Positions 3,014 to 52,209 of a stretch of DNA of 64,000 nucleotides are shown piece after piece. The notes below the pieces were generated by a model, which saw only the letters and a program-made list of their open reading frames with translations, was not told where the DNA came from and ran no database searches. Where the stretch lies: positions 62,001 to 126,000 of the forward strand of contig NZ_SMMI01000010.1 of assembly GCF_009733535.1 (NCBI RefSeq), read 5' to 3'. The translations under genes and the position numbers were made by a program. Every line of letters starts with the position of its first letter. The first letter of the stretch is position 1. The DNA comes from Sphingobacterium endophyticum (GTDB taxonomy: Bacteria > Bacteroidota > Bacteroidia > Sphingobacteriales > Sphingobacteriaceae).

Positions 3014-4147
3014 ATGGAACTATTTAATGTATATCCTGTTACTCCCATCAATATCGTAAAAGCTCAAGGCTCTACGGTTTGGGATGAACAAGGAAATGAG
3101 TATTTGGATTTGTATGGTGGACATGCCGTTATTTCAATCGGGCACACCCATCCTCATTATGTAAAGAGTGTTTCTGATCAATTGAATAAAATTGGTTTTT
3201 ATTCTAATTCAATTTTGATTCCAATTCAACAACACTTAGCCTCTCAATTGGGTGAAGTGTCAGGAAAATTAGATTATACATTATTCTTATGCAATTCTGG
3301 TGCTGAAGCAAATGAGAATGCTTTAAAGCTAGCTTCATTTCATACTGGTCGTAAGAAAATAATTGCTTTTAGTAAATCATTCCACGGTCGGACCTCATTA
3401 GCTGTAGCTGCAACTGATAACCCTTCAATTATTGCTCCAGTCAATGAAACTGATAATGTTGTTTTTCTTCCATTCAATGATGAAGATTCGCTACAAAAGG
3501 CTTTTTCGGAATATGGCGAAGAAATAGCTGCCGTCATTATTGAAGGTATTCAAGGTGTTGGAGGTATTCGTGAGGCATCAATCCCATTTCTAAAATTAAT
3601 ACGTAACCTGTGTGATCAGTTTGGTGCAATTTTCATAGCCGATTCTGTACAATGCGGTTATGGACGTACTGGCGATTTTTATTCTCATGATTTTGCCGGC
3701 GTTAATGCTGATATTTATTCTATGGCAAAAGGTATGGGTAATGGATTCCCTATAGGAGGTATTTCAATCTCACCTAAATTTAAACCATCATTTGGTTTGT
3801 TAGGTACTACTTTTGGGGGAAATCATTTAGCTTGTGCAGCTGCTGTTTCTGTCTTGGATATTATAAAAAAAGACAATTTGATGGATAATGCCTCTAAAGT
3901 TGGTGATTACCTAATTTCTGAATTGAAGAAATTCGATAAAGTCATGGAAGTTAGAGGAAGAGGTTTAATGATAGGTATTGAGTTGCCTGCCGAATTGGCC
4001 AACGTTAAAAAGGATTTACTATTAAAAAACAGAATCTTTACCGGTGAGGCAAAACCTAATGTTATACGCTTATTGCCTGCATTAAATATAACCAAAGAGA
4101 TCGCTGATCAATTTTTAACAGCTTTCGATGAAAGATTGAAAGCTTAA
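3014..4147 (+). CDS. argD: Acetyl/succinylornithine aminotransferase (class III PLP enzyme)
   Basis: Converts N-acylglutamate semialdehyde plus glutamate to N-acylornithine and 2-oxoglutarate. The 377-residue protein is a complete class III aminotransferase: the NSGAEANENALKLA phosphate-binding loop, the SFHGRT motif and the PLP lysine K239 in SMAKGMGNGFPIGG. Next to argF', argB and argE its role in arginine synthesis is clear. The acyl group is probably succinyl, inferred from the ArgF' type. One oddity is that the usual DE-V-Q motif reads D210-S-V-Q-C-G, with serine for glutamate after the PLP aspartate. It is the first gene of arginine locus 1, 18 bases before argF'. Confidence 0.93.
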   Translation: MELFNVYPVTPINIVKAQGSTVWDEQGNEYLDLYGGHAVISIGHTHPHYVKSVSDQLNKIGFYSNSILIPIQQHLASQLGEVSGKLDYTLFLCNSGAEANENALKLASFHTGRKKIIAFSKSFHGRTSLAVAATDNPSIIAPVNETDNVVFLPFNDEDSLQKAFSEYGEEIAAVIIEGIQGVGGIREASIPFLKLIRNLCDQFGAIFIADSVQCGYGRTGDFYSHDFAGVNADIYSMAKGMGNGFPIGGISISPKFKPSFGLLGTTFGGNHLACAAAVSVLDIIKKDNLMDNASKVGDYLISELKKFDKVMEVRGRGLMIGIELPAELANVKKDLLLKNRIFTGEAKPNVIRLLPALNITKEIADQFLTAFDERLKA

Positions 4148-4164
4148 AAGATAATATAGATTAA

Positions 4165-5130
4165 ATGAAAAAATTTTTCTCCGTTGCTGATGTGGATAAT
4201 CTAAAAAGTATTGTTGACGAAGCATTAGACATAAAATCAAAACCTTATGCAAATGAGGCTTTAGGAAAACACAAGATGCTTGGATTAGTTTTTCTTAATC
4301 CAAGTTTAAGAACTCGTTTAAGTACGCAGAAGGCTGGAATGAACCTAGGAATGAATGTGATGGTCATGAATATGGATAAAGATGGCTGGGCATTGGAAAC
4401 TCGAGACGGGGTAATCATGAATGGAACTACCGTTGAGCATATTCGAGAAGCTGCAGCAGTGATGGGAGAGTACTGTGATATTTTAGGATTGCGTTCATTT
4501 CCAACACTTAAGGATAAGGTTGCTGATTATTCCGAGGATTTGTTTAATAAGTTTATTAACTATTGTGGAGTACCTGTCGTTTCATTGGAAAGTGCAACTC
4601 GACATCCACTTCAAAGTTTAACAGACTTAATTACTATTACAGAATATAAAAAGAAAGATAAGCCAAAGGTTGTCTTAGCTTGGGCTCCTCACGTTAAGGC
4701 TTTACCTCAGGCAGTGCCTAATTCGTTCTCAGAATGGATGTGTCGTGCTCAAGAAGAGGGATTAGTTGATTTTACGATAGCTCAGCCTGCTGGATACGAA
4801 TTGTCGGAAGATTTTACACAAGGTGCAAATATTACAACGGATCTTGATGCAGCATTACAGGATGCTGATTTTGTATATGTTAAGAACTGGTCTTCATTTA
4901 AAGAATATGGAGAGGTATATCCTGTGAATGAAAATTGGTTATTAGACAATGAGAAGTTAAAATTGACTAATGATGCAAAAGTAATGCACTGCCTTCCTGT
5001 CCGTCGTGACTTAGAACTTTCCTCTGAGATATTGGATGGTCCAAATTCATTAGTTATAAAAGAGGCAAGTAATAGAGTTTGGGCAGCGCAAGTGGTGTTG
5101 AAAAGAATGTTGGAGGATCTGAAGTCTTAA
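4165..5130 (+). CDS. argF': N-succinylornithine carbamoyltransferase (ArgF' type)
   Basis: Carbamoylates N-acylornithine with carbamoyl phosphate to N-acylcitrulline. It is a 321-residue transcarbamylase with the carbamoyl-phosphate motif SLRTRLSTQKA (about 47-57), the EAATRHPLQS-type motif (ESATRHPLQS) and HCLPVRRD. Start MKKFFSVADV, length and motifs fit the Bacteroides fragilis SOTCase as I remember it, not ordinary OTCase. The specificity residue (Pro90 in the B. fragilis enzyme, Glu92 in acetylornithine transcarbamylases) aligns with Val90 here (NGTTV90EH). From memory, mutating that Glu to small or hydrophobic residues including Val shifts the acetyl enzyme to succinylornithine, so succinyl specificity is the better guess. 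argB follows after 8 bases. Confidence 0.92.
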   Translation: MKKFFSVADVDNLKSIVDEALDIKSKPYANEALGKHKMLGLVFLNPSLRTRLSTQKAGMNLGMNVMVMNMDKDGWALETRDGVIMNGTTVEHIREAAAVMGEYCDILGLRSFPTLKDKVADYSEDLFNKFINYCGVPVVSLESATRHPLQSLTDLITITEYKKKDKPKVVLAWAPHVKALPQAVPNSFSEWMCRAQEEGLVDFTIAQPAGYELSEDFTQGANITTDLDAALQDADFVYVKNWSSFKEYGEVYPVNENWLLDNEKLKLTNDAKVMHCLPVRRDLELSSEILDGPNSLVIKEASNRVWAAQVVLKRMLEDLKS

Positions 5131-5138
5131 AAAATAGC

Positions 5139-5927
5139 ATGTCGGTATTAAATATTATTAAAATAGGAGGGAATGTTATTGATAATCCTGATCAATTAGA
5201 AGCATTCTTAGAAAAATTCTCTTCATTACCAGGAAGGAAAATACTGGTTCATGGCGGTGGAAAAATTGCAACACGTATTGCAACAGATATGGGCATTGAA
5301 GCCAAGATGGTGGAAGGCCGCCGTATTACTGACAGAGCAATGTTGGATGTAGTGACTATGGTATATGCTGGATTGACTAATAAAAATATTGTTGCCGCAC
5401 TACAAAAATATGATTGTAATGCCATCGGTTTATGTGGTGCTGATGCTAATGTTATCAAAGCCGTTAAAAGACCGGTAAAGGAAATTGATTATGGTTTTGT
5501 TGGTGATATCCTTGCTGATTCAATAGACTCTTTAGCTATTAAAAAATTACTTGAAGCTGAGTTTACACCTGTTTTTTCAGCTATAACTCATAATGGAAAT
5601 GGACAACTATTAAATACCAATGCAGATACCATCGCATCTTCATTGGCAGTTGCTCTTTCCAAATTATATGAAGTATCATTAATATATTGCTTTGATAAAA
5701 ACGGAGTGTTGTTGGATGTTAACAATGATAATTCCGTTATTGAAACGATCAAATCTTCTGAATTTGAAAGATTGAAGGAAAGTAAAACCATTCATGATGG
5801 GATGATTCCTAAATTATTTAATGCGTTTGATGCCATTTCAAAAGGTGTAAGCAATGTTTACATTGGCCACGCAAATAATTTACATCTTTTTCAGCAGAGG
5901 AAGTTTGGTACTTGTTTGATTGCCTAA
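5139..5927 (+). CDS. argB: N-acylglutamate kinase
   Basis: Phosphorylates N-acetyl- or N-succinylglutamate, the second arginine step. The 262-residue amino acid kinase begins MSVLNIIKIGGNVID. It has the K-I-G-G-N nucleotide loop, the HGGGK substrate loop, the EGRRITDRAMLDVVTMVYAG segment and ANTDTIA-like NTNADTIAS near residue 160. The frame is open upstream, but the first ATG, at 5139, gives the conserved N-terminus and lies 8 bases after argF'. It is tightly packed with argF' and proC, so it is presumably co-transcribed. Confidence 0.94.
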   Translation: MSVLNIIKIGGNVIDNPDQLEAFLEKFSSLPGRKILVHGGGKIATRIATDMGIEAKMVEGRRITDRAMLDVVTMVYAGLTNKNIVAALQKYDCNAIGLCGADANVIKAVKRPVKEIDYGFVGDILADSIDSLAIKKLLEAEFTPVFSAITHNGNGQLLNTNADTIASSLAVALSKLYEVSLIYCFDKNGVLLDVNNDNSVIETIKSSEFERLKESKTIHDGMIPKLFNAFDAISKGVSNVYIGHANNLHLFQQRKFGTCLIA

Positions 5928-5938
5928 ACTTAAATAAA

Positions 5939-6739
5939 ATGAATAAGATAACAATTATTGGGGGAGGAAATATTGGGTTGTCATTGGCTAACGGCTTAGT
6001 GAAATCTAACTATTGTTCATCTGCAGAAATAACAATTACGCGCAGGAACTTATCCTCTTTGACACTGGAAAAGGAAAAGGGATATGTGGTCAGTGATTCA
6101 AATTCAGAAGCTGTAATTGGCGCTGAATTTATAGTTCTAGCCATTTTGCCTCAACAAATCAAGAAGGTAATGGATGAATTAACTCCAGTGCTGACTCCAA
6201 GTCAAACTATTATTTCTGTTGTGTCTGGTGTTTCATGCCAAGATATAAAAGATGTATTAGGCCAAGATAAAATTGTTGTCAGAGCTATGCCTAATACAGC
6301 CATAGCAATTGGACAATCCATGACTTGTATTGCTACTGATAATGCTCCAGAAGAGAAAGTTGAGGAAGTATCAGTAATCTTTGAATCTGTAGGTTCGGTT
6401 GTGGTAATCAATGAGGATTTGATGACCTCGGCGACCGCTTTGTGTGCATGTGGAATTGCTTTCTTTTTAAGAAGTATTCGTGCAGCCTCTCAGGGTGGAG
6501 TGGAAATAGGGTTTCATGCACATGATGCTTTAAAAATGGCGATTCAGACGGCAAAAGGAGCTGCAGATTTATTGCTGCAAATGCAAAGTCATCCTGAAAG
6601 TGAAATAGACAAGGTTACTTCCCCTAAAGGTTGTACAATTGCTGGATTGAATGAAATGGAACACAATGGTTTCAGCTCTGCATTCATCAAGGGAATTAAA
6701 CTATCAGCAAAAAAAGCAGGAGGTTTATATAATGACTAA
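5939..6739 (+). CDS. proC: Pyrroline-5-carboxylate reductase
   Basis: Reduces 1-pyrroline-5-carboxylate to proline with NAD(P)H. The 266-residue protein has an N-terminal Rossmann fold with ITIIGGGNIGLSLANG, the VRAMPNTA motif and the C-terminal dimerisation part (TSPKGCTIAGLNEMEHNGF), all typical of ProC. The ATG at 5939 is chosen because it puts the Rossmann strand right at the N-terminus; an open frame upstream has no ATG. It lies inside the arginine operon between argB and argE and overlaps argE by 8 bases, suggesting coupled translation. A different imine substrate in this context cannot be ruled out. Confidence 0.92.
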   Translation: MNKITIIGGGNIGLSLANGLVKSNYCSSAEITITRRNLSSLTLEKEKGYVVSDSNSEAVIGAEFIVLAILPQQIKKVMDELTPVLTPSQTIISVVSGVSCQDIKDVLGQDKIVVRAMPNTAIAIGQSMTCIATDNAPEEKVEEVSVIFESVGSVVVINEDLMTSATALCACGIAFFLRSIRAASQGGVEIGFHAHDALKMAIQTAKGAADLLLQMQSHPESEIDKVTSPKGCTIAGLNEMEHNGFSSAFIKGIKLSAKKAGGLYND

Positions 6740-7796
6740 AATTGAGCTATTAATTGAGGAAAGTATTTCCTTGTTGAAGGATTTGATTCGTACTCCATCT
6801 TTTAGTCGAGAGGAAGATCAAACAGCTCAAATAATAAAAGAGTTTTTTTTAAAGCATGATATTAATATCGAAAGAATAGGAAATAATATCATTGCTTACA
6901 ATAAATATCCGGATGAAAAAAAACCTTTTATCCTATTAAATTCTCACCACGACACTGTCAAGCCAAATCCGGGTTATACAAAAGATCCATTTTTGCCCAT
7001 TGAAGAAAATGGAAAATTATTTGGATTAGGGAGTAATGATGCTGGAGGATGTTTGGTTTCTTTGATTGCAGCATTTCGATACTTTTATAATCATGAAGAT
7101 CTTCCTTTTAATCTTTGCTTAGTTGCTTCCTCGGAAGAAGAAATTTCAGGGAGAGGGGGCTTGGAAGAAGCATATAAGCATATCAAACCATGTGATTTTG
7201 CAATTATTGGTGAACCTACCTTGTTAAATTTAGCAGTTGCTGAAAAAGGATTGATGGTACTAGACTGTGAATCACTTGGAATATCAGGACATGCTGCTCG
7301 TGAAGAGGGAGAAAACGCAATTTATAATGCTATTCAGGATATTAATTGGTTCAGAACCTACGAATTTCCCAAAAAATCTGAATTTTTAGGCCCTGTAAAG
7401 ATGAGTGTGACAATAATTGAAGCAGGATCTCAGCATAATGTGGTGCCAGCCAGCTGCAAATTTGTTGTTGACGTCAGGACAACCGATGTTTATAGTAATT
7501 TAGAGGTTTTAGAAATTATTAGGGGACATGTGAAATCTACTGTTGAACCTCGTTCAACTCGATTGAACCCCTCGTCAATATCTATTGAACATCCAATTGT
7601 AAAATCTGGAATAGCATTAGGAAAACAACTATATGGGAGCCCTACGATGAGTGATCAGGCGATATTAAGTATTCCATCGATAAAAACAGGTCCGGGTGAC
7701 TCAGCAAGATCCCATTCTGCTGACGAATTTATCTATGTGAAAGAAATTCGTGATGGAATTCGATATTATATCGATCTTTTAGAAGGGATAATGTAG
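6732..7796 (+). CDS. argE: N-acylcitrulline/N-acylornithine deacylase (M20 peptidase family)
   Basis: A zinc-dependent M20 amidohydrolase, 354 residues. In pathways using ArgF' it removes the acetyl or succinyl group from N-acylcitrulline to give citrulline. Metal-site motifs are NSHHDTVKPNP, GLGSNDAGG, the SSEEEISGRGG catalytic glutamate and IGEPT, with the late ligand histidine in ARSHSADEF. The ATG at 6732 overlaps the proC stop by 8 bases and gives the normal family length; longer versions of the frame run through proC. It is the last gene of locus 1 and is followed by a shared terminator. Confidence 0.92.
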   Translation: MTKIELLIEESISLLKDLIRTPSFSREEDQTAQIIKEFFLKHDINIERIGNNIIAYNKYPDEKKPFILLNSHHDTVKPNPGYTKDPFLPIEENGKLFGLGSNDAGGCLVSLIAAFRYFYNHEDLPFNLCLVASSEEEISGRGGLEEAYKHIKPCDFAIIGEPTLLNLAVAEKGLMVLDCESLGISGHAAREEGENAIYNAIQDINWFRTYEFPKKSEFLGPVKMSVTIIEAGSQHNVVPASCKFVVDVRTTDVYSNLEVLEIIRGHVKSTVEPRSTRLNPSSISIEHPIVKSGIALGKQLYGSPTMSDQAILSIPSIKTGPGDSARSHSADEFIYVKEIRDGIRYYIDLLEGIM

Positions 7797-7814: not shown

Positions 7815-7846
7815 TAAAAAAAGCGGGCATTGCCCGCTTTTTTTAT
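7815..7846. terminator. Bidirectional terminator between argE and the Lrp-type gene
   Basis: A GC-rich perfect stem, AAGCGGGCA (7821-7829) with TGCCCGCTT (7831-7839), is flanked by an A-run on the left and a T-run on the right. It can therefore end transcription from both convergent genes; it overlaps the 3' end of the minus-strand gene. Confidence 0.9.
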
Positions 7847-8313
7847 AGAGTGATTTGTCTTTTGATGCTCTCTTCTAAAGAAATAATGGTTTCAGTACGT
7901 TGAATACCTTTCAAACCTTGTATATCTTCATTTAAAACTTTGCGTAAGTGCGCTGTGTCTTTACAGATGATCTTAGCGAACATACTATATTGCCCCGTAC
8001 AATAGTGAACCTCTACCACTTCTTTTACTTGTCTTAGCTGTTCAACAGCATCTGCATATTGAGATCCTTTCTCTAAATAGATTCCAAGGAACGCCGTAAT
8101 GTCAAATCCAACCTTTTGAGGGTTGATTATTAGGTTAGATCCTCGAATTATTCCCAATTCTTCCATTTTTTTCATGCGAACATGGATAGTTCCACCAGAA
8201 ACTATTAGTTTTTTAGCTATTTCTGTGTATGGAATTGAGGCATCTTCCATTAAAATGGATAAAATTTGAACATCAAGGTTGTCTAAATCGTAATTTGAAT
8301 AGTTTTTTTCCAT
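7843..8313 (-). CDS. Lrp/AsnC family transcriptional regulator
   Basis: A 156-residue regulator with an N-terminal winged helix-turn-helix at about residues 10-60 (LDVQILSILMEDASIPYTEI, then VSGGTIHVRMKKMEELGII) and a C-terminal RAM ligand-binding domain at about 75-150 (VHYCTGQYSMFAKIICKD). These proteins sense amino acids and often regulate their own gene. It is convergent with argE and shares its terminator. A perfect 11-bp inverted repeat lies 56-81 bases upstream of its start and could be its own operator. Whether it controls the arginine genes cannot be told from sequence. The ATG at 8313 is the natural start. Confidence 0.93.
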   Translation of the reverse strand: MEKNYSNYDLDNLDVQILSILMEDASIPYTEIAKKLIVSGGTIHVRMKKMEELGIIRGSNLIINPQKVGFDITAFLGIYLEKGSQYADAVEQLRQVKEVVEVHYCTGQYSMFAKIICKDTAHLRKVLNEDIQGLKGIQRTETIISLEESIKRQITL

Positions 8314-48247: not shown

Positions 48248-48457
48248 GATGATGAAATTTTATGCAAAATTAAGGATTTATTTAATTATTGTGCTATTTA
48301 CAAAGCATTCAAACAAAAACTTACAAAACAATGAGAGATTTTAAACGTTTCAATAATTGGAAAGTCTGATTGAAAGGTTTTCAATGAAGCTTGAACCTAT
48401 TTGTTTTTTAATTAAAAAAACTACTTTGAGATTGCATAAAAGAAAAAAATAATTGTT

Positions 48458-48465
48458 TACTTTTG
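48458..48465 (+). promoter_or_regulatory. Putative -7 promoter element of arginine locus 2
   Basis: TACTTTTG, followed by C, fully matches TAnnTTTG. An ATTG 23 bases upstream might be the -33 element. Transcription from near 48470 would make a leader of about 285 bases, holding a small arginine-rich ORF and several hairpins. Confidence 0.5.
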
Positions 48466-48504
48466 CGCTGTCAGATCACTTAGTATAAATAAGATATATT
48501 AACG

Positions 48505-48639
48505 ATGTATTGTAACAAATTGTATATGAATTCTTCTGCTCAAGCTTATGAAAAGCTTGTGAAGGATGCCTATTGTGCAGTACGAACACTTAATTGTCCT
48601 GTTCTACGATTCCGACGACCTATTCTGCCTCGAGCTTGA
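48505..48639 (+). CDS. Putative arginine-rich leader peptide of the argG operon
   Basis: A 44-codon ORF with an ATG at 48505 and TGA at 48637-48639; a second in-frame ATG at 48526 would give 37 codons. The C-terminal half reads AVRTLNCPVLRFRRPILPRA. All five arginines (codons at 48583, 48607, 48613, 48616 and 48631) use CGA, and they fall in the last 18 codons before the stop. In nearby argG nearly all arginines are CGT and I see no CGA. The stop codon lies in the loop of hairpin 48625-48650. Placement before arginine genes suggests a leader peptide whose translation reports Arg-tRNA supply. This is an inference. Confidence 0.5.
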   Translation: MYCNKLYMNSSAQAYEKLVKDAYCAVRTLNCPVLRFRRPILPRA

Positions 48640-48714
48640 TTCTGAGGCAGGCAAACTTCCCATTTTGTTATTCATCCAGCTCGATGAATGATATTCAAAT
48701 TAGATTTTTAGTTC
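48541..48714 (+). promoter_or_regulatory. Structured leader of the argG operon (candidate attenuator)
   Basis: Three perfect hairpins lie in order: CAAGCTT/AAGCTTG (48541-48547 with 48553-48559), CTGCCTC/GAGGCAG (48625-48631 with 48644-48650) and ATTCATC/GATGAAT (48670-48676 with 48683-48689). Bases 48630-48636 (TCGAGCT) are the exact complement of 48678-48684 (AGCTCGA), so the second and third loops can pair or compete. The 5' side of the first hairpin can also pair with 48633-48638. Mutually exclusive folds of this kind are what a ribosome-controlled attenuator needs. Confidence 0.5.
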
Positions 48715-48737
48715 AAATACTTTGGTATTTATTTTTT
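48715..48737 (+). terminator. Small terminator-like hairpin just before the first arginine locus 2 gene
   Basis: AAATAC (48715-48720) pairs perfectly with GTATTT (48725-48730) around TTTG and is followed directly by ATTTTTT. The stem is weak (one GC pair), but the T-tract is in the right place. It ends 16 bases before the GNAT start codon, the position expected for the terminator of an attenuator. Confidence 0.45.
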
Positions 48738-48753
48738 AGGTCGACATTATTAA

Positions 48754-49470
48754 ATGACAATCTCAGATTTTTTAATTATTCCAGCAGCGGCAGATCATGT
48801 GAAATATGCCGAAGAAGTCTGTAATGAAATGTTTGAGTCTGCAAAGGCTCGTGGAACCGGTATCGCACGTAGAAAACCAGAATACGTTGCACGTAAAATG
48901 GAAGAGGGCAAAGCCGTAATCGCTTTGCATAAAGACGGTACTTGGGCTGGATTCTGTTATATTGAAACATGGAGTCATGGTGATTATGTCGCTAATTCAG
49001 GCCTTATTGTAAATCCTGTGTTCCGTAAAGTTGGCCTAGCCAAAGCAATTAAAAAAAGAGTGTTTGAACTCTCTAGAGAAAAATACCCTCATTCTAAGAT
49101 TTTCGGATTGACAACAGGATTAGCTGTAATGAAAATCAACTCCGACCTAGGATATGAACCTGTGACCTATTCTGAATTAACTCAAGACGAAGAATTCTGG
49201 AAAGGTTGCCAATCTTGTGTTAATTACGATATCTTAATGTCTAAAGATCGCAAAAATTGTATGTGTACGGCGATGCTTTGGGATCCTGTCGAAAAAGAAA
49301 AAGAACTTAAAGAAAAAATTCAGCGTAAAGCTGAAGCAAAGGAACGATTGGATAGAATCTCCAAAAAACAGTCTCTCCTAAAAAGAATTGAAGCGAAACT
49401 GTGGAGATCAACTAAGAAATTTGTTGCTGCGGTATTTCCCGTAGGTGCTAGACCTGTAAAAGGTTTTTAA
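48754..49470 (+). CDS. GNAT N-acyltransferase of arginine synthesis (probable N-acylglutamate synthase)
   Basis: Probably makes the N-acylated glutamate that starts the pathway. The 238-residue protein has a GNAT domain (about 5-140) with the acyl-CoA loop NPVFRKVGLAKAIKKR. It then has a cysteine cluster C152-x2-C155-x13-C169-x-C171 that could bind a metal, and a basic helical tail (about 178-238). In Bacteroides the equivalent gene next to argG has, as I recall, been proposed as N-succinylglutamate synthase. It is not similar to the classical ArgA or ArgJ. It is first in the locus, 41 bases before argG, behind the candidate attenuator. Confidence 0.82.
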   Translation: MTISDFLIIPAAADHVKYAEEVCNEMFESAKARGTGIARRKPEYVARKMEEGKAVIALHKDGTWAGFCYIETWSHGDYVANSGLIVNPVFRKVGLAKAIKKRVFELSREKYPHSKIFGLTTGLAVMKINSDLGYEPVTYSELTQDEEFWKGCQSCVNYDILMSKDRKNCMCTAMLWDPVEKEKELKEKIQRKAEAKERLDRISKKQSLLKRIEAKLWRSTKKFVAAVFPVGARPVKGF

Positions 49471-49511: not shown

Positions 49512-50699
49512 ATGAAAAAAGTAGTTTTAGCTTTTAGTGGTGGATTAGATACTTCATTCTGTTGTATTTATCTATCTCGTGACTTAGGAATGGAAGTTCA
49601 CTCTGTTATTGTTAATACCGGAGGTTTTTCTGAAGAAGAATTAAAGAATGTCGAAAAAAGAGCCTATGATTTAGGTGTTAAGTCACATACCACAATTGAT
49701 GAAACTGAAGATTATTACCAGGATACCATTAAGTATTTGATCTTTGGTAATGTTTTGAAAAATGCTACCTATCCTCTTTCCGTTTCAGCAGAACGTGTTT
49801 CTCAAGCTACAGCAATTGCAAACTATGCAAAAAGTATTTCCGCAGAATGTGTCGCTCATGGATCAACTGGGGCAGGTAACGATCAAGTTCGTTTTGACAT
49901 GATCTTCCAAACATTAATTCCAGGCGTAGAGATTATTACTCCGATCCGTGACCTTCAATTGTCTCGTGAGGATGAAATCGAATACCTTAATAAGCACGGA
50001 GTTGAGTATTCTGCTGAAAAAGCTAAATATTCTATTAATAAAGGCCTATGGGGAACTTCAGTTGGTGGAGCCGAAACCTTAACTTCAAATAAATATCTTC
50101 CTGAAAGTGCTTGGCCTACTCCATTAACTTCTACGGAACCTCAAAAAATCACTATAGATTTTGAAAAAGGGCAGCCTGTAGCGTTGAATGGAAATAAATT
50201 AGGACCTGTTAAAGTTATTCAAGAACTGCAGGCTTTAGCTCAGCCTTATGGTATTGGTCGTGATATACATGTTGGTGATACTATTATTGGAATTAAAGGA
50301 CGTGTTGGATTCGAAGCTGCCGGCCCAATTATTTTAATCAAAGCTCACCATACTTTAGAAAAACATACGCTAACGAAGTGGCAATTATCTTGGAAAGATC
50401 AATTAGCAGCTTTCTATGGGAATTATATGCATGAAGGTCAGATGCATGACCCTGTTATGCGTGATATGGAAGCTTTCCTTCAGAGTTCTCAAGAAACCGT
50501 CTCAGGACGTGTATTTGTGGAACTGCACCCTCACCGCTTCGTTATTTTAGGAATTGAGTCAGAACATGATTTGATGTCTAACAAATTCGGTAGCTATGGT
50601 GAAATGAATAAGGGCTATACAGGTGATGATGTAAAAGGTTTCTCGAAAATTTTCGGTAACCAAACCATTATTTGGCATAAAGTAAATCATAAAGATTAA
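49512..50699 (+). CDS. argG: Argininosuccinate synthase
   Basis: Condenses citrulline and aspartate with ATP to argininosuccinate. The 395-residue protein has the PP-loop FSGGLDTS (8-15), SAERVSQATAIANYAKS, the substrate motif HGSTGAGNDQVRFD and SINKGLWGTSVGGAE. Its length fits the family. It is the second gene of arginine locus 2. Its stop overlaps the next gene's start by one base (TAATG). The partner argH is not in this window. Confidence 0.96.
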   Translation: MKKVVLAFSGGLDTSFCCIYLSRDLGMEVHSVIVNTGGFSEEELKNVEKRAYDLGVKSHTTIDETEDYYQDTIKYLIFGNVLKNATYPLSVSAERVSQATAIANYAKSISAECVAHGSTGAGNDQVRFDMIFQTLIPGVEIITPIRDLQLSREDEIEYLNKHGVEYSAEKAKYSINKGLWGTSVGGAETLTSNKYLPESAWPTPLTSTEPQKITIDFEKGQPVALNGNKLGPVKVIQELQALAQPYGIGRDIHVGDTIIGIKGRVGFEAAGPIILIKAHHTLEKHTLTKWQLSWKDQLAAFYGNYMHEGQMHDPVMRDMEAFLQSSQETVSGRVFVELHPHRFVILGIESEHDLMSNKFGSYGEMNKGYTGDDVKGFSKIFGNQTIIWHKVNHKD

Positions 50700-51145
50700 T
50701 GATAATTGAAGCCGACCTTAATCACTTAGAGGACCTCGCTCCACTATTTGACTCATACCGAGTTTTTTATAAGCAAGATTCGGATCTTGAAAGGGGAAAA
50801 GCTTTTCTGAAATCGAGAATCGAAAATAATGAGTCTATTATTTATATGTTCTATAAGGATGGTAAAGCCGTAGGTTTTACCCAGCTTTATCCAAAATATT
50901 CTTCTGCAAGATTAATCAAAAATTGGATTCTTAATGATCTGTATGTTGATGAAAATTATAGAAGGGAAGGAATTGCTAAACAGCTTATAAATAAGGCAGT
51001 TTCGTTTTCTAATGATCAAGAAGCAGAGTTTATTCAATTAGAGACTCAGAATAGTAATAGTAATGCTCAATTATTATATCATAAAATGAATTTTCAAATT
51101 CAGGATTCTGATCAAGAATTTATTTTATTTAAAAGATTTTTATAA
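50699..51145 (+). CDS. Second GNAT N-acetyltransferase
   Basis: A 148-residue stand-alone GNAT enzyme. The acyl-CoA-binding segment is VDENYRREGIAKQLINKA (about 82-99, R-x-x-G-x-A form), and the C-terminal NSNAQLLYHKMNFQ strand-helix is typical of the family. It differs in length and sequence from the 238-residue GNAT three genes up, so it is not a duplicate. It is translationally coupled to argG. It could acylate an arginine-pathway compound or an unrelated small molecule; sequence does not decide. Confidence 0.83.
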   Translation: MIIEADLNHLEDLAPLFDSYRVFYKQDSDLERGKAFLKSRIENNESIIYMFYKDGKAVGFTQLYPKYSSARLIKNWILNDLYVDENYRREGIAKQLINKAVSFSNDQEAEFIQLETQNSNSNAQLLYHKMNFQIQDSDQEFILFKRFL

Positions 51146-51189: not shown

Positions 51190-52209
51190 ATGGAAAAAAT
51201 TAAAGTAGGAATTGTTGGGTCGGCTGGTTATACTGGTGGTGAGTTATTAAGATTATTAATCTTTCACCCCAACGTAGAGATTATTTTCGCGAATAGTGCT
51301 TCTAATGCAGGTAATAAACTATCTGACGTACATAATGACTTATTTGGTGATACCGAATTGACATTCTCATCTGATTTTCATTCTAATATAGACGTTTTGT
51401 TCCTATGTGTGGGACATGGTGATGCAAGGAAATTTTTAGATGCTAATCCAATTGACCCTTCTGTAAAAATTATTGACCTTTCTCAAGATTATAGATTAAA
51501 GAATCGTGTTGAATATCAAGGAAAGAATTTTATCTATGGGCTTCCTGAGTTGAATAAAGAGGCTATTAAAACTGCGCATTATATTGCTAACCCTGGATGT
51601 TTTGCAACAAATATTCAGTTGGCATTATTGCCATTAGCAAGCAAAGGATTGTTGCCTGATCAAATTCATGTCAATGCTACTACTGGTTCTACAGGTGCTG
51701 GACAAAAACCAAGTGCTACAACTCATTTCTCTTGGCGGAATAATAACCTTTCTGCTTATAAATCGTTTGAACATCAACATTTACAAGAAATATCAGAGTC
51801 TCTGAATCAATTGCAGGACAATTTCCTCCCAATCGGCGACGGGTCATTATTAGATAGAGCGGCTCAAAGGATTAATTTTATACCTCAACGAGGAGATTTT
51901 GCTAGAGGAATTTTTTCTGCAATCTATGTTGAGACTGATTTATCGGAGGATCAAGCTTATGAGTTGTTTGAAACTTATTATGCTGAACACCCATTTACTC
52001 ATGTTTCTAGAGCTAATATCGATTTGAAACAAGTTGTAAATACCAATAAGAGTATTATACATCTTGAAAAACATGGTAATAAACTGCTTATCCTTAATGT
52101 GACTGATAATCTGCTGAAAGGAGCGTCTGGACAGGCGGTTCAAAATATGAATTTGATGTTCGGATTGGATGAAAAGGCTGGTCTGGGATTAAAATCCGTT
52201 GGCTTTTAA
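51190..52209 (+). CDS. argC: N-acyl-gamma-glutamyl-phosphate reductase
   Basis: Reduces N-acylglutamyl phosphate to the semialdehyde with NADPH. The 339-residue protein has the Rossmann motif KVGIVGSAGYTGGELLRLL (5-23) and the catalytic C137 in ANPGC137FATN. The substrate part follows with HINATTGSTGAG-like HVNATTGSTGAG, then FEHQHLQEI. It supplies the step between ArgB and ArgD of locus 1. Its start is 12 bases beyond a terminator-like hairpin, so its expression may depend on read-through. A bidirectional terminator follows. Confidence 0.95.
   Translation: MEKIKVGIVGSAGYTGGELLRLLIFHPNVEIIFANSASNAGNKLSDVHNDLFGDTELTFSSDFHSNIDVLFLCVGHGDARKFLDANPIDPSVKIIDLSQDYRLKNRVEYQGKNFIYGLPELNKEAIKTAHYIANPGCFATNIQLALLPLASKGLLPDQIHVNATTGSTGAGQKPSATTHFSWRNNNLSAYKSFEHQHLQEISESLNQLQDNFLPIGDGSLLDRAAQRINFIPQRGDFARGIFSAIYVETDLSEDQAYELFETYYAEHPFTHVSRANIDLKQVVNTNKSIIHLEKHGNKLLILNVTDNLLKGASGQAVQNMNLMFGLDEKAGLGLKSVGF

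Follow-up and report, generated by a model that had tools for sequence, protein, structure and literature searches.

Upstream of a GNAT-argG-GNAT-argC operon in Sphingobacterium, a conserved arginine-codon leader that most likely takes the place of the ArgR repressor, with counterparts in many relatives

ArgR is the established repressor of arginine genes. The fungal arginine attenuator peptide and SpeFL/orf34 act as arrest peptides, and the cat and erm leaders of chloramphenicol and macrolide resistance work by translational attenuation, in which a parked ribosome is the controlling agent. Bacteroidota rarely use Shine-Dalgarno sequences. The trp, his, leu, and thr attenuators are built on a leader ORF with codons for the end product of the pathway (PMC1183508); the main text of that paper, which deals with attenuator theory, does not contain the word “arginine”. 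In the LEU element before actinobacterial leuA, as outlined in PMC1262725, a run of Leu codons in the leader pairs with the Shine-Dalgarno box, a pseudoknot is also present, and translational attenuation was proposed. The account of Actinobacteria in the same source states that conserved RNA structures were not seen before arginine operons and that T-boxes serve arginine elsewhere. A flavobacterial transcriptome study reports strong clues for leader-peptide attenuation at amino-acid operons and identifies conserved 5’ elements upstream of pheA and of hisG, and the section concerned does not mention arginine (PMC9723704). A literature search, mostly confined to work outside subscription journals, returned no arginine-specific leader peptide of the kind described below. 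An earlier sequence-only reading of the locus likewise pointed to no arginine leader peptide of this form in Bacteroidota.

The locus lies in a window of 64,000 nucleotides from Sphingobacterium endophyticum, in an assembly of 4.72 Mb and 48 contigs. All features of the locus given below are on the plus strand. The first gene (48754..49470) encodes a GNAT-like acetyltransferase, with Pfam GNAT matches under the curated cut-off and a match to the PDB structure of the GNAT protein PA4794 (E 2.8e-07). It is followed by argG (49512..50699, TIGR00032 above cut-off), a second GNAT gene (50699..51145, PF00583), and argC (51190..52209, TIGR01850 above cut-off). The leader ORF (48505..48639) encodes a 44-residue peptide, MYCNKLYM...LRFRRPILPRA-stop. 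Its five arginines occupy codons 27, 35, 37, 38, and 43, and every one is CGA, as the sequence-only reading had described; across the ORFs of the window CGA makes up 77 of 635 Arg codons.

The Bacteroidota -7 element has the consensus TAnnTTTG. A promoter element of this type, TACTTTTG, can be read directly at 48458..48465, where it had been placed before, and a TAnnTTTG box lies no more than 70 nt 5’ of the leader in 80 of 81 same-genus genomes (base shuffles give 2.7). The distance from box to leader start is 19-39 nt in these genomes.

The closest counterpart in layout may be the LEU element. In both, a run of end-product codons in an upstream ORF would pair just before the first gene, and a pseudoknot would lie inside the pairing. 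The LEU element belongs to leucine and leuA in Actinobacteria and its partner is the Shine-Dalgarno box, whereas here the end product is arginine and the partner is a TAGGTCG sequence. The candidate pseudoknot here is a loop-loop contact between two hairpins, H1 and H2, around the leader stop codon and within the closing stem. With the trp, his, leu, and thr attenuators the locus shares a leader ORF carrying codons for the pathway end product (PMC1183508); the Sphingobacterium leader differs from them in having no conserved terminator. The likeness to the cat and erm leaders would be that a parked leader ribosome frees the initiation region of the next gene, but the signal there is a drug, while here it would be arginine shortage acting on a biosynthetic operon. 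The fungal arginine attenuator peptide and SpeFL/orf34 resemble the locus in being short upstream ORFs connected with arginine or ornithine metabolism. ArgR is a DNA-binding protein and in that respect differs, but its gene adjoins the same GNAT gene on the upstream side in nine genomes of the class.

Leader-region DNA matches 84 of 93 same-genus genomes at E values up to 0.01 (own genome included), with some matches covering only part of the query, and the GNAT protein matches 91 of the 93 (in G072 a paralogue only). Upstream DNA was read in 81 of the 93, the window included. The rows absent from this set are G069 and G083, which have no GNAT match, and G072 with its paralogue; G018, G044, G055, G060, G068, G075, G078, G088, and G091 also fall outside the 81. 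A leader was found in all 81, with an ATG start in 80 and a GTG start (44 codons) in G029, and every one of the 81 closes with RRPILPRA-stop. Counted from the nearest fitting ATG, the leader is 44 codons long in nearly all same-genus genomes although residues 2-30 drift. The exceptions are G062, with 45 codons, and a few leaders with a further in-frame ATG upstream. A 40-base match on contig C22 was considered as a second copy of the leader in the genome and was rejected, because it is confined to the AT-rich 3’ portion of the query sequence and lies in a neighbourhood that by eye looks unrelated.

Codon usage was tabulated for the 77 distinct leaders among the 80 that start with ATG, G029 being excluded because of its GTG start. 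Codon 35 (48607..48609) specifies Arg in 77 of 77 and does so through six codons: CGA 39, CGC 23, AGA 7, AGG 3, CGG 3, and CGT 2. Codons 37 and 38 (48613..48618), the tandem control codons, are CGA CGA in all 77. Codon 43 (48631..48633), at the 5’ edge of the H1 loop, is again Arg in all 77 (CGA 53, CGG 23, AGA 1). Pro32 is kept in 76 of the 77 through four codons and Leu34 in 73 through six. Synonymous change at Arg35, Pro32, and Leu34 points to translation and to selection on arginine. Comparison thus supports the view that the leader ORF is translated and that its Arg residues are under selection, and the Arg-sensing translated leader proposed from the single sequence gains accordingly from the comparison. 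The tRNA-Arg anticodons found in the own genome are ACG (two), TCT, CCG, and CCT. In this set only the ACG tRNA, by way of inosine, should be able to read CGA. I-A wobble decoding is slow.

A set of named loci was formed from the best 80 of 581 GNAT loci. Candidate leaders start with ATG in 79 of the 80 and with GTG in Olivibacter (L056), and those of L067 and L082 are weak candidates. Conservation of the ORF, which had been put forward as a check, thus extends through Sphingobacterium and other Sphingobacteriaceae. The tails read LRFRRPILPRA in Sphingobacterium and Parapedobacter, LRFRRPFMPRT in Daejeonella, SRRRPYMPRV in Mucilaginibacter, LRRRPLYIPRF in one Pedobacter type, and SRSSRSRA, mostly with CGG codons, in Myroides and Flavobacterium, and variants of these tails occur. 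Of 79 named loci, 69 carry a tandem CGA-CGA in frame; those without it are L067, L082, and eight loci of Myroides/Flavobacterium. In 77 of the 79, Arg is encoded by the sense codon before the last. Across 80 leaders including that of the window (48505-48639, L032-L111), 39 have a length of 44 codons and 23 a length of 41.

A class sample of 80 loci was picked by hand, across families, from 130 genomes of the class outside the genus that have a GNAT match. Gene starts in this sample were estimated from the match, so distances are approximate. Counting as Arg-rich any ORF whose final 14 codons include three or more Arg and which is located no more than 350 nt upstream, such ORFs precede the GNAT gene in 50 of the 80 loci, against 9.0 in Markov shuffles. 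Ser, Leu, and Lys fall below expectation at the same threshold in these 80 loci, and after Arg the largest excesses belong to Pro (15 vs 6.0), Val (9 vs 4.8), and Cys (4 vs 1.5). The Arg codons vary by family (CGT, CGC, CGG, AGG), so that the common feature is arginine and no single codon. In g14, a genus of the same family (L243, L245, L247, L248), the arginines are more scattered, as in ERLRP...SNRHTYTPRI.

The distribution of ArgR was compared with that of the leader. The ArgR C-terminal domain was found in none of 30 genomes searched (the own genome, 17 of the same genus, and 12 of the same class), while the Bacteroides control was positive. The N-terminal domain was found in 8 of 149 class genomes, 7 of them above cut-off, and in 10 of the 80 sampled class genomes, 9 of them above cut-off; the weak tenth is on a contig other than that of the GNAT gene. 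All nine above-cut-off matches (L309, L307, L305, L308, L312, L311, L301, L314, and L292) are on the contig and strand of the GNAT gene, with argR directly upstream. The long ORF at the ArgR position ends 10-124 nt before the estimated GNAT start in these nine genomes. Leader candidates occur in 2 of the 9 ArgR genomes and in 48 of the 71 others (Fisher p = 0.012), and both candidates in ArgR genomes fall inside the ORF at the argR position; without these the count is 0 of 9 and p = 0.00012, both p-values being descriptive only because related genomes are not independent. It looks as if a single slot in the operon is filled by either the leader or ArgR. Taken together, conservation in the genus, enrichment in the class, and the presence of ArgR in the same slot make arginine sensing by a translated leader well supported, and in much of the class Bacteroidia an Arg leader very probably serves in place of ArgR.

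The RNA of the leader has a fold z of -3.34. Covariation was assessed in 48 of the 81 same-genus rows, after removal of G062 (45 codons) and of leaders at least 90% identical to others, against the maximum number of compensatory cells over 1000 arm shuffles, a control that ignores relatedness. RNAalifold on these 48 non-redundant leaders predicts, in both the MFE and the centroid structure, a long-range helix and the hairpins P0, H1, and H2, with two pairs remaining of H3. The covariation check invited by the sequence-only reading comes out above the arm shuffles for five of six helices, the exception being H3.

Hairpin P0 (48541..48559, CAAGCTT/AAGCTTG) lies within the leader and has 24 compensatory cells against a shuffle maximum of 21. 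Hairpin H1 (48625..48650, CTGCCTC/GAGGCAG) is perfect and carries the leader stop TGA in its loop, exactly as first read. It has 7 compensatory cells against a maximum of 4, including the variant CTACCTC/GAGGTAG, in which a synonymous CTG to CTA change is matched on the other arm. The leader stop is inside a hairpin in 78 of 78 distinct same-genus leaders (control mean 52.2, maximum 60) and in 57 of 62 other named loci, the eight of Myroides/Flavobacterium included (control mean 33.0, maximum 41). In the class sample the count is 37 of 50 and is not significant (control mean 30.8, maximum 37). In two loci with a PTRRRP tail (L287 and L288) a tight hairpin, CCC-GTAA-GGG, has the stop TAA in its loop, and the loop of the next hairpin, GGAAATAGGTGAGTCCATTTCC, could by eye pair with the Arg codons.

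In hairpin H2 (48670..48689, ATTCATC/GATGAAT) compensatory cells number 66, where the shuffles reach 35 at most. Its loop AGCTCG (48678..48683) is the predicted kissing partner of CGAGCT in H1 (48631-48636), with 259 of 280 cells paired and 6 compensatory cells against a maximum of 5. The second hairpin and its complementary loop had been noted before and stand, but the 7-base match TCGAGCT/AGCTCGA given for the loops does not. It overlaps both stem ends, which leaves about 5 bases (GAGCT/AGCTC) as the true match between the loops. The kissing pair follows the change of codon 43 from CGA to CGG, CGAGCT/AGCTCG becoming CGGGCT with GGTCCG, AGTCCG, or the shorter-matching TGTCCG. Among the distinct same-genus leaders, a convincing kissing partner was not found in G022, G030, and G063. 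Hairpin H3 (48715..48730, AAATAC/GTATTT) is followed by an AT-rich tract, ATTTTTT. A small hairpin often recurs nearby, and covariation of H3 in the 48 leaders does not exceed the control (21 cells against a shuffle maximum of 27).

The long-range helix would join CGACCTA (48616..48622), which runs from the Arg38 codon through that of Pro39 into the first base of Ile40 and is here called the anti-initiator strand, to TAGGTCG (48737..48743), which ends 10 nt 5’ of the GNAT start. The first strand is proposed from the RNAalifold consensus and pair counts, and the second from the pairing match as well. When the last 26 nt before the gene are searched for the best complement of the Arg strand, its end falls 7-10 nt upstream of the start codon in every one of the 78 distinct leaders. 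In G067 the Arg strand pairs poorly with the region before the GNAT start, and six distinct leaders lose the outer C-G pair, their 3’ strand ending GGTCA or GGTCT. Covariation support for this helix is thin. There are 6 compensatory cells against a shuffle maximum of 5, the fraction of paired cells is 0.95 against 0.94 in shuffles, and the near-invariant strands bias RNAalifold towards predicting the helix. Its changes, like those of H1, belong mainly to one clade (CCT/AGG to CCC/GGG in the helix, CTGCCTC/GAGGCAG to CTACCTC/GAGGTAG in H1). Among 8 loci of the Parapedobacter group with A37T11, inspection shows a G opposite the CCC type in 7, the exception being L051. The Mucilaginibacter, Pedobacter, and Olivibacter types keep CGA-CGA but have no such partner for the Arg codons near the gene start, so pairing is not the sole reason for these codons. 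Their retention where the helix is missing suggests that selection acts on the codons themselves.

The reading that we consider likely, with a fair measure of confidence, is that the element is an arginine-specific, ribosome-mediated attenuator of translation whose Arg codons double as the anti-initiator strand. With ample arginine, ribosomes would clear the leader, the long-range helix would close, the GNAT initiation region would be hidden, and the operon would be low. With scarce Arg-tRNA, a ribosome would wait on CGA-CGA and cover the anti-initiator strand, while H1 and H2 would stay free, the footprint of a ribosome parked there ending at about the start of H1 (48625). The initiation region would then open and GNAT-argG-GNAT-argC would be translated. 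The repressing strand would consist of the same bases as the regulatory codons.

Ribosome positions were simulated with an assumed footprint of 16 nt behind and 12 nt ahead of the A-site codon. With the ribosome on Arg37, mean unpairedness of the GGTC region increases from 0.09 to 0.34, and it rises by more than 0.1 in 39 of the 48 leaders and falls in none. The wider initiation region opens slightly (0.40 to 0.46). The GGTC-region value is 0.34 with the ribosome on Arg43 and 0.29 with the ribosome on the stop codon, and Arg37 exceeds the stop-codon position by more than 0.1 in just 8 of 48 leaders. The computed fold thus does not tell a ribosome on an Arg codon from one on the stop codon, and the switch would rest on dwell time. 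A translational output in Sphingobacterium is more likely than not, though less certain than an Arg leader in place of ArgR in much of the class.

A classical transcription attenuator, in which formation of a terminator before the GNAT gene depends on where the ribosome stands along the Arg codons, is unlikely for this leader. Such an output was what the sequence-only reading implied in ending its element on a small hairpin with ATTTTTT. The hairpin and the tract are present in the window, and leader-peptide attenuation has been inferred for amino-acid operons of Flavobacterium psychrophilum in the part of PMC9723704 that treats them. H3 alone folds at only -2.2 kcal/mol, compared with -14.5 for the terminator-like hairpin before argD in the same window, and its U-tract is not conserved. 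Of the 78 distinct leaders, 43 have a U-rich tail (at least 6 T of 9) on their best small hairpin, some of these hairpins being chosen further upstream. In a uniform test of hairpins between leader and gene, terminator-like hairpins were found in 12 of 78 distinct Sphingobacterium leaders, above the 1.9 in shuffles, and some of these leaders may terminate transcription. The remaining 66 fail the test, as do all 8 of the Parapedobacter group (0 of 8); the H3 of the window is among the failures because it has just two G-C pairs. Terminator-like hairpins were likewise found in 1 of 28 loci of the Mucilaginibacter type, 1 of 7 of the Pedobacter type, and 1 of 8 of Myroides/Flavobacterium. A terminator scan of 48350-48800 reported none, but the same scan also missed the obvious one before argD, so its negative carries no weight here. 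No competing antiterminator arm for H3 was seen, and the strand with recurrent pairing sits 3’ of the U-tract. H3 was rejected as a terminator forming the general output in the genus. The feature common to the genus is, on these comparisons, the predicted helix over the region before the GNAT start and not a terminator. The Daejeonella/Hufsiella/Arcticibacter loci are of another kind, with terminator-like hairpins in 6 of 7 against 0.0 in shuffles, and the output of the Daejeonella group may be transcriptional. In L058, L064, L065, and L068 of the Daejeonella type, TCCG...CGGA and a T-run stand directly before the gene. The leader in this group could pair with the 3’ arm of the terminator, although simple logic then gives the wrong sign.

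Two further explanations concern the peptide and the RNA taken by themselves. An arrest peptide, with RRPILPRA in the exit tunnel sensing arginine or a related metabolite and stalling the ribosome at the stop, would account for RRPILPRA-stop in all 77 distinct leaders, for the synonymous conservation of Pro32 and Leu34, for Arg at the second-last sense codon of the named loci, and for the excess of Pro in the class. The conserved P32, L34, P39, and P42 are indeed surplus to the needs of a pure codon sensor. The tails across the class are nevertheless diverse (PTRRRP, FYIRR, RRFRRPSGV, SRSSRSRA), with mainly their Arg content in common, and the Sphingobacterium tail partly overlaps H1, so that the RNA may fix those bases. 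A stall at the stop under high arginine would also open the GNAT start in the computed fold, which is the wrong sign for a biosynthetic operon. This explanation is less likely, and we regard it as improbable. An element acting purely as RNA, such as an arginine riboswitch, in which the ORF is incidental, would fit the covarying folded RNA of P0, H1, H2, and the loops. At the gathering score, Rfam gave no match in the window, and in a search of 20 related loci it matched no leader, the single match being an SRP RNA in L087. The preservation of Arg35 through six codons and of Pro and Leu through synonymous codons in the 77 distinct leaders, together with the recurrence of Arg-rich ORFs in distant families, argues against an incidental ORF and makes this explanation very improbable.

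The observation on which the earlier reading was based is confirmed as real, and its interpretation is partly supported: the sensing leader is upheld and the terminator as general output in the genus is not. The most likely account overall is that an arginine-poor ribosome switches the arginine genes on, in place of the usual repressor protein, in Sphingobacterium and many relatives. We give about even chances to a fuller statement: that much of the class Bacteroidia governs its argG operon by arginine leader peptides and not by ArgR, the leaders occupying the slot that argR has in relatives, that CGA-CGA in Sphingobacterium, read in the tRNA set found by the ACG tRNA alone, is both the sensor and the start-blocking strand and is clamped by the kissing loops around the leader stop, and that the arrangement is an independent counterpart of the LEU element. 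If right, the attenuator of translation proposed here would explain how arginine is sensed in Bacteroidota that have no ArgR, and would show that the same operon slot can be taken either by a repressor protein or by a leader peptide that acts as sensor. It would also be a second case of control codons that double as an anti-initiator strand, in a phylum whose initiation differs from that of E. coli.

The window contains another arginine cluster at 3014-7796, in which argB was assigned by TIGR00761 and argD, a transcarbamylase, and an argE-like gene by eye. No leader was found before this argD cluster (from 3014), where there is insufficient room for one. A small gene on the minus strand at 7843-8313 by eye resembles an Lrp/AsnC regulator.
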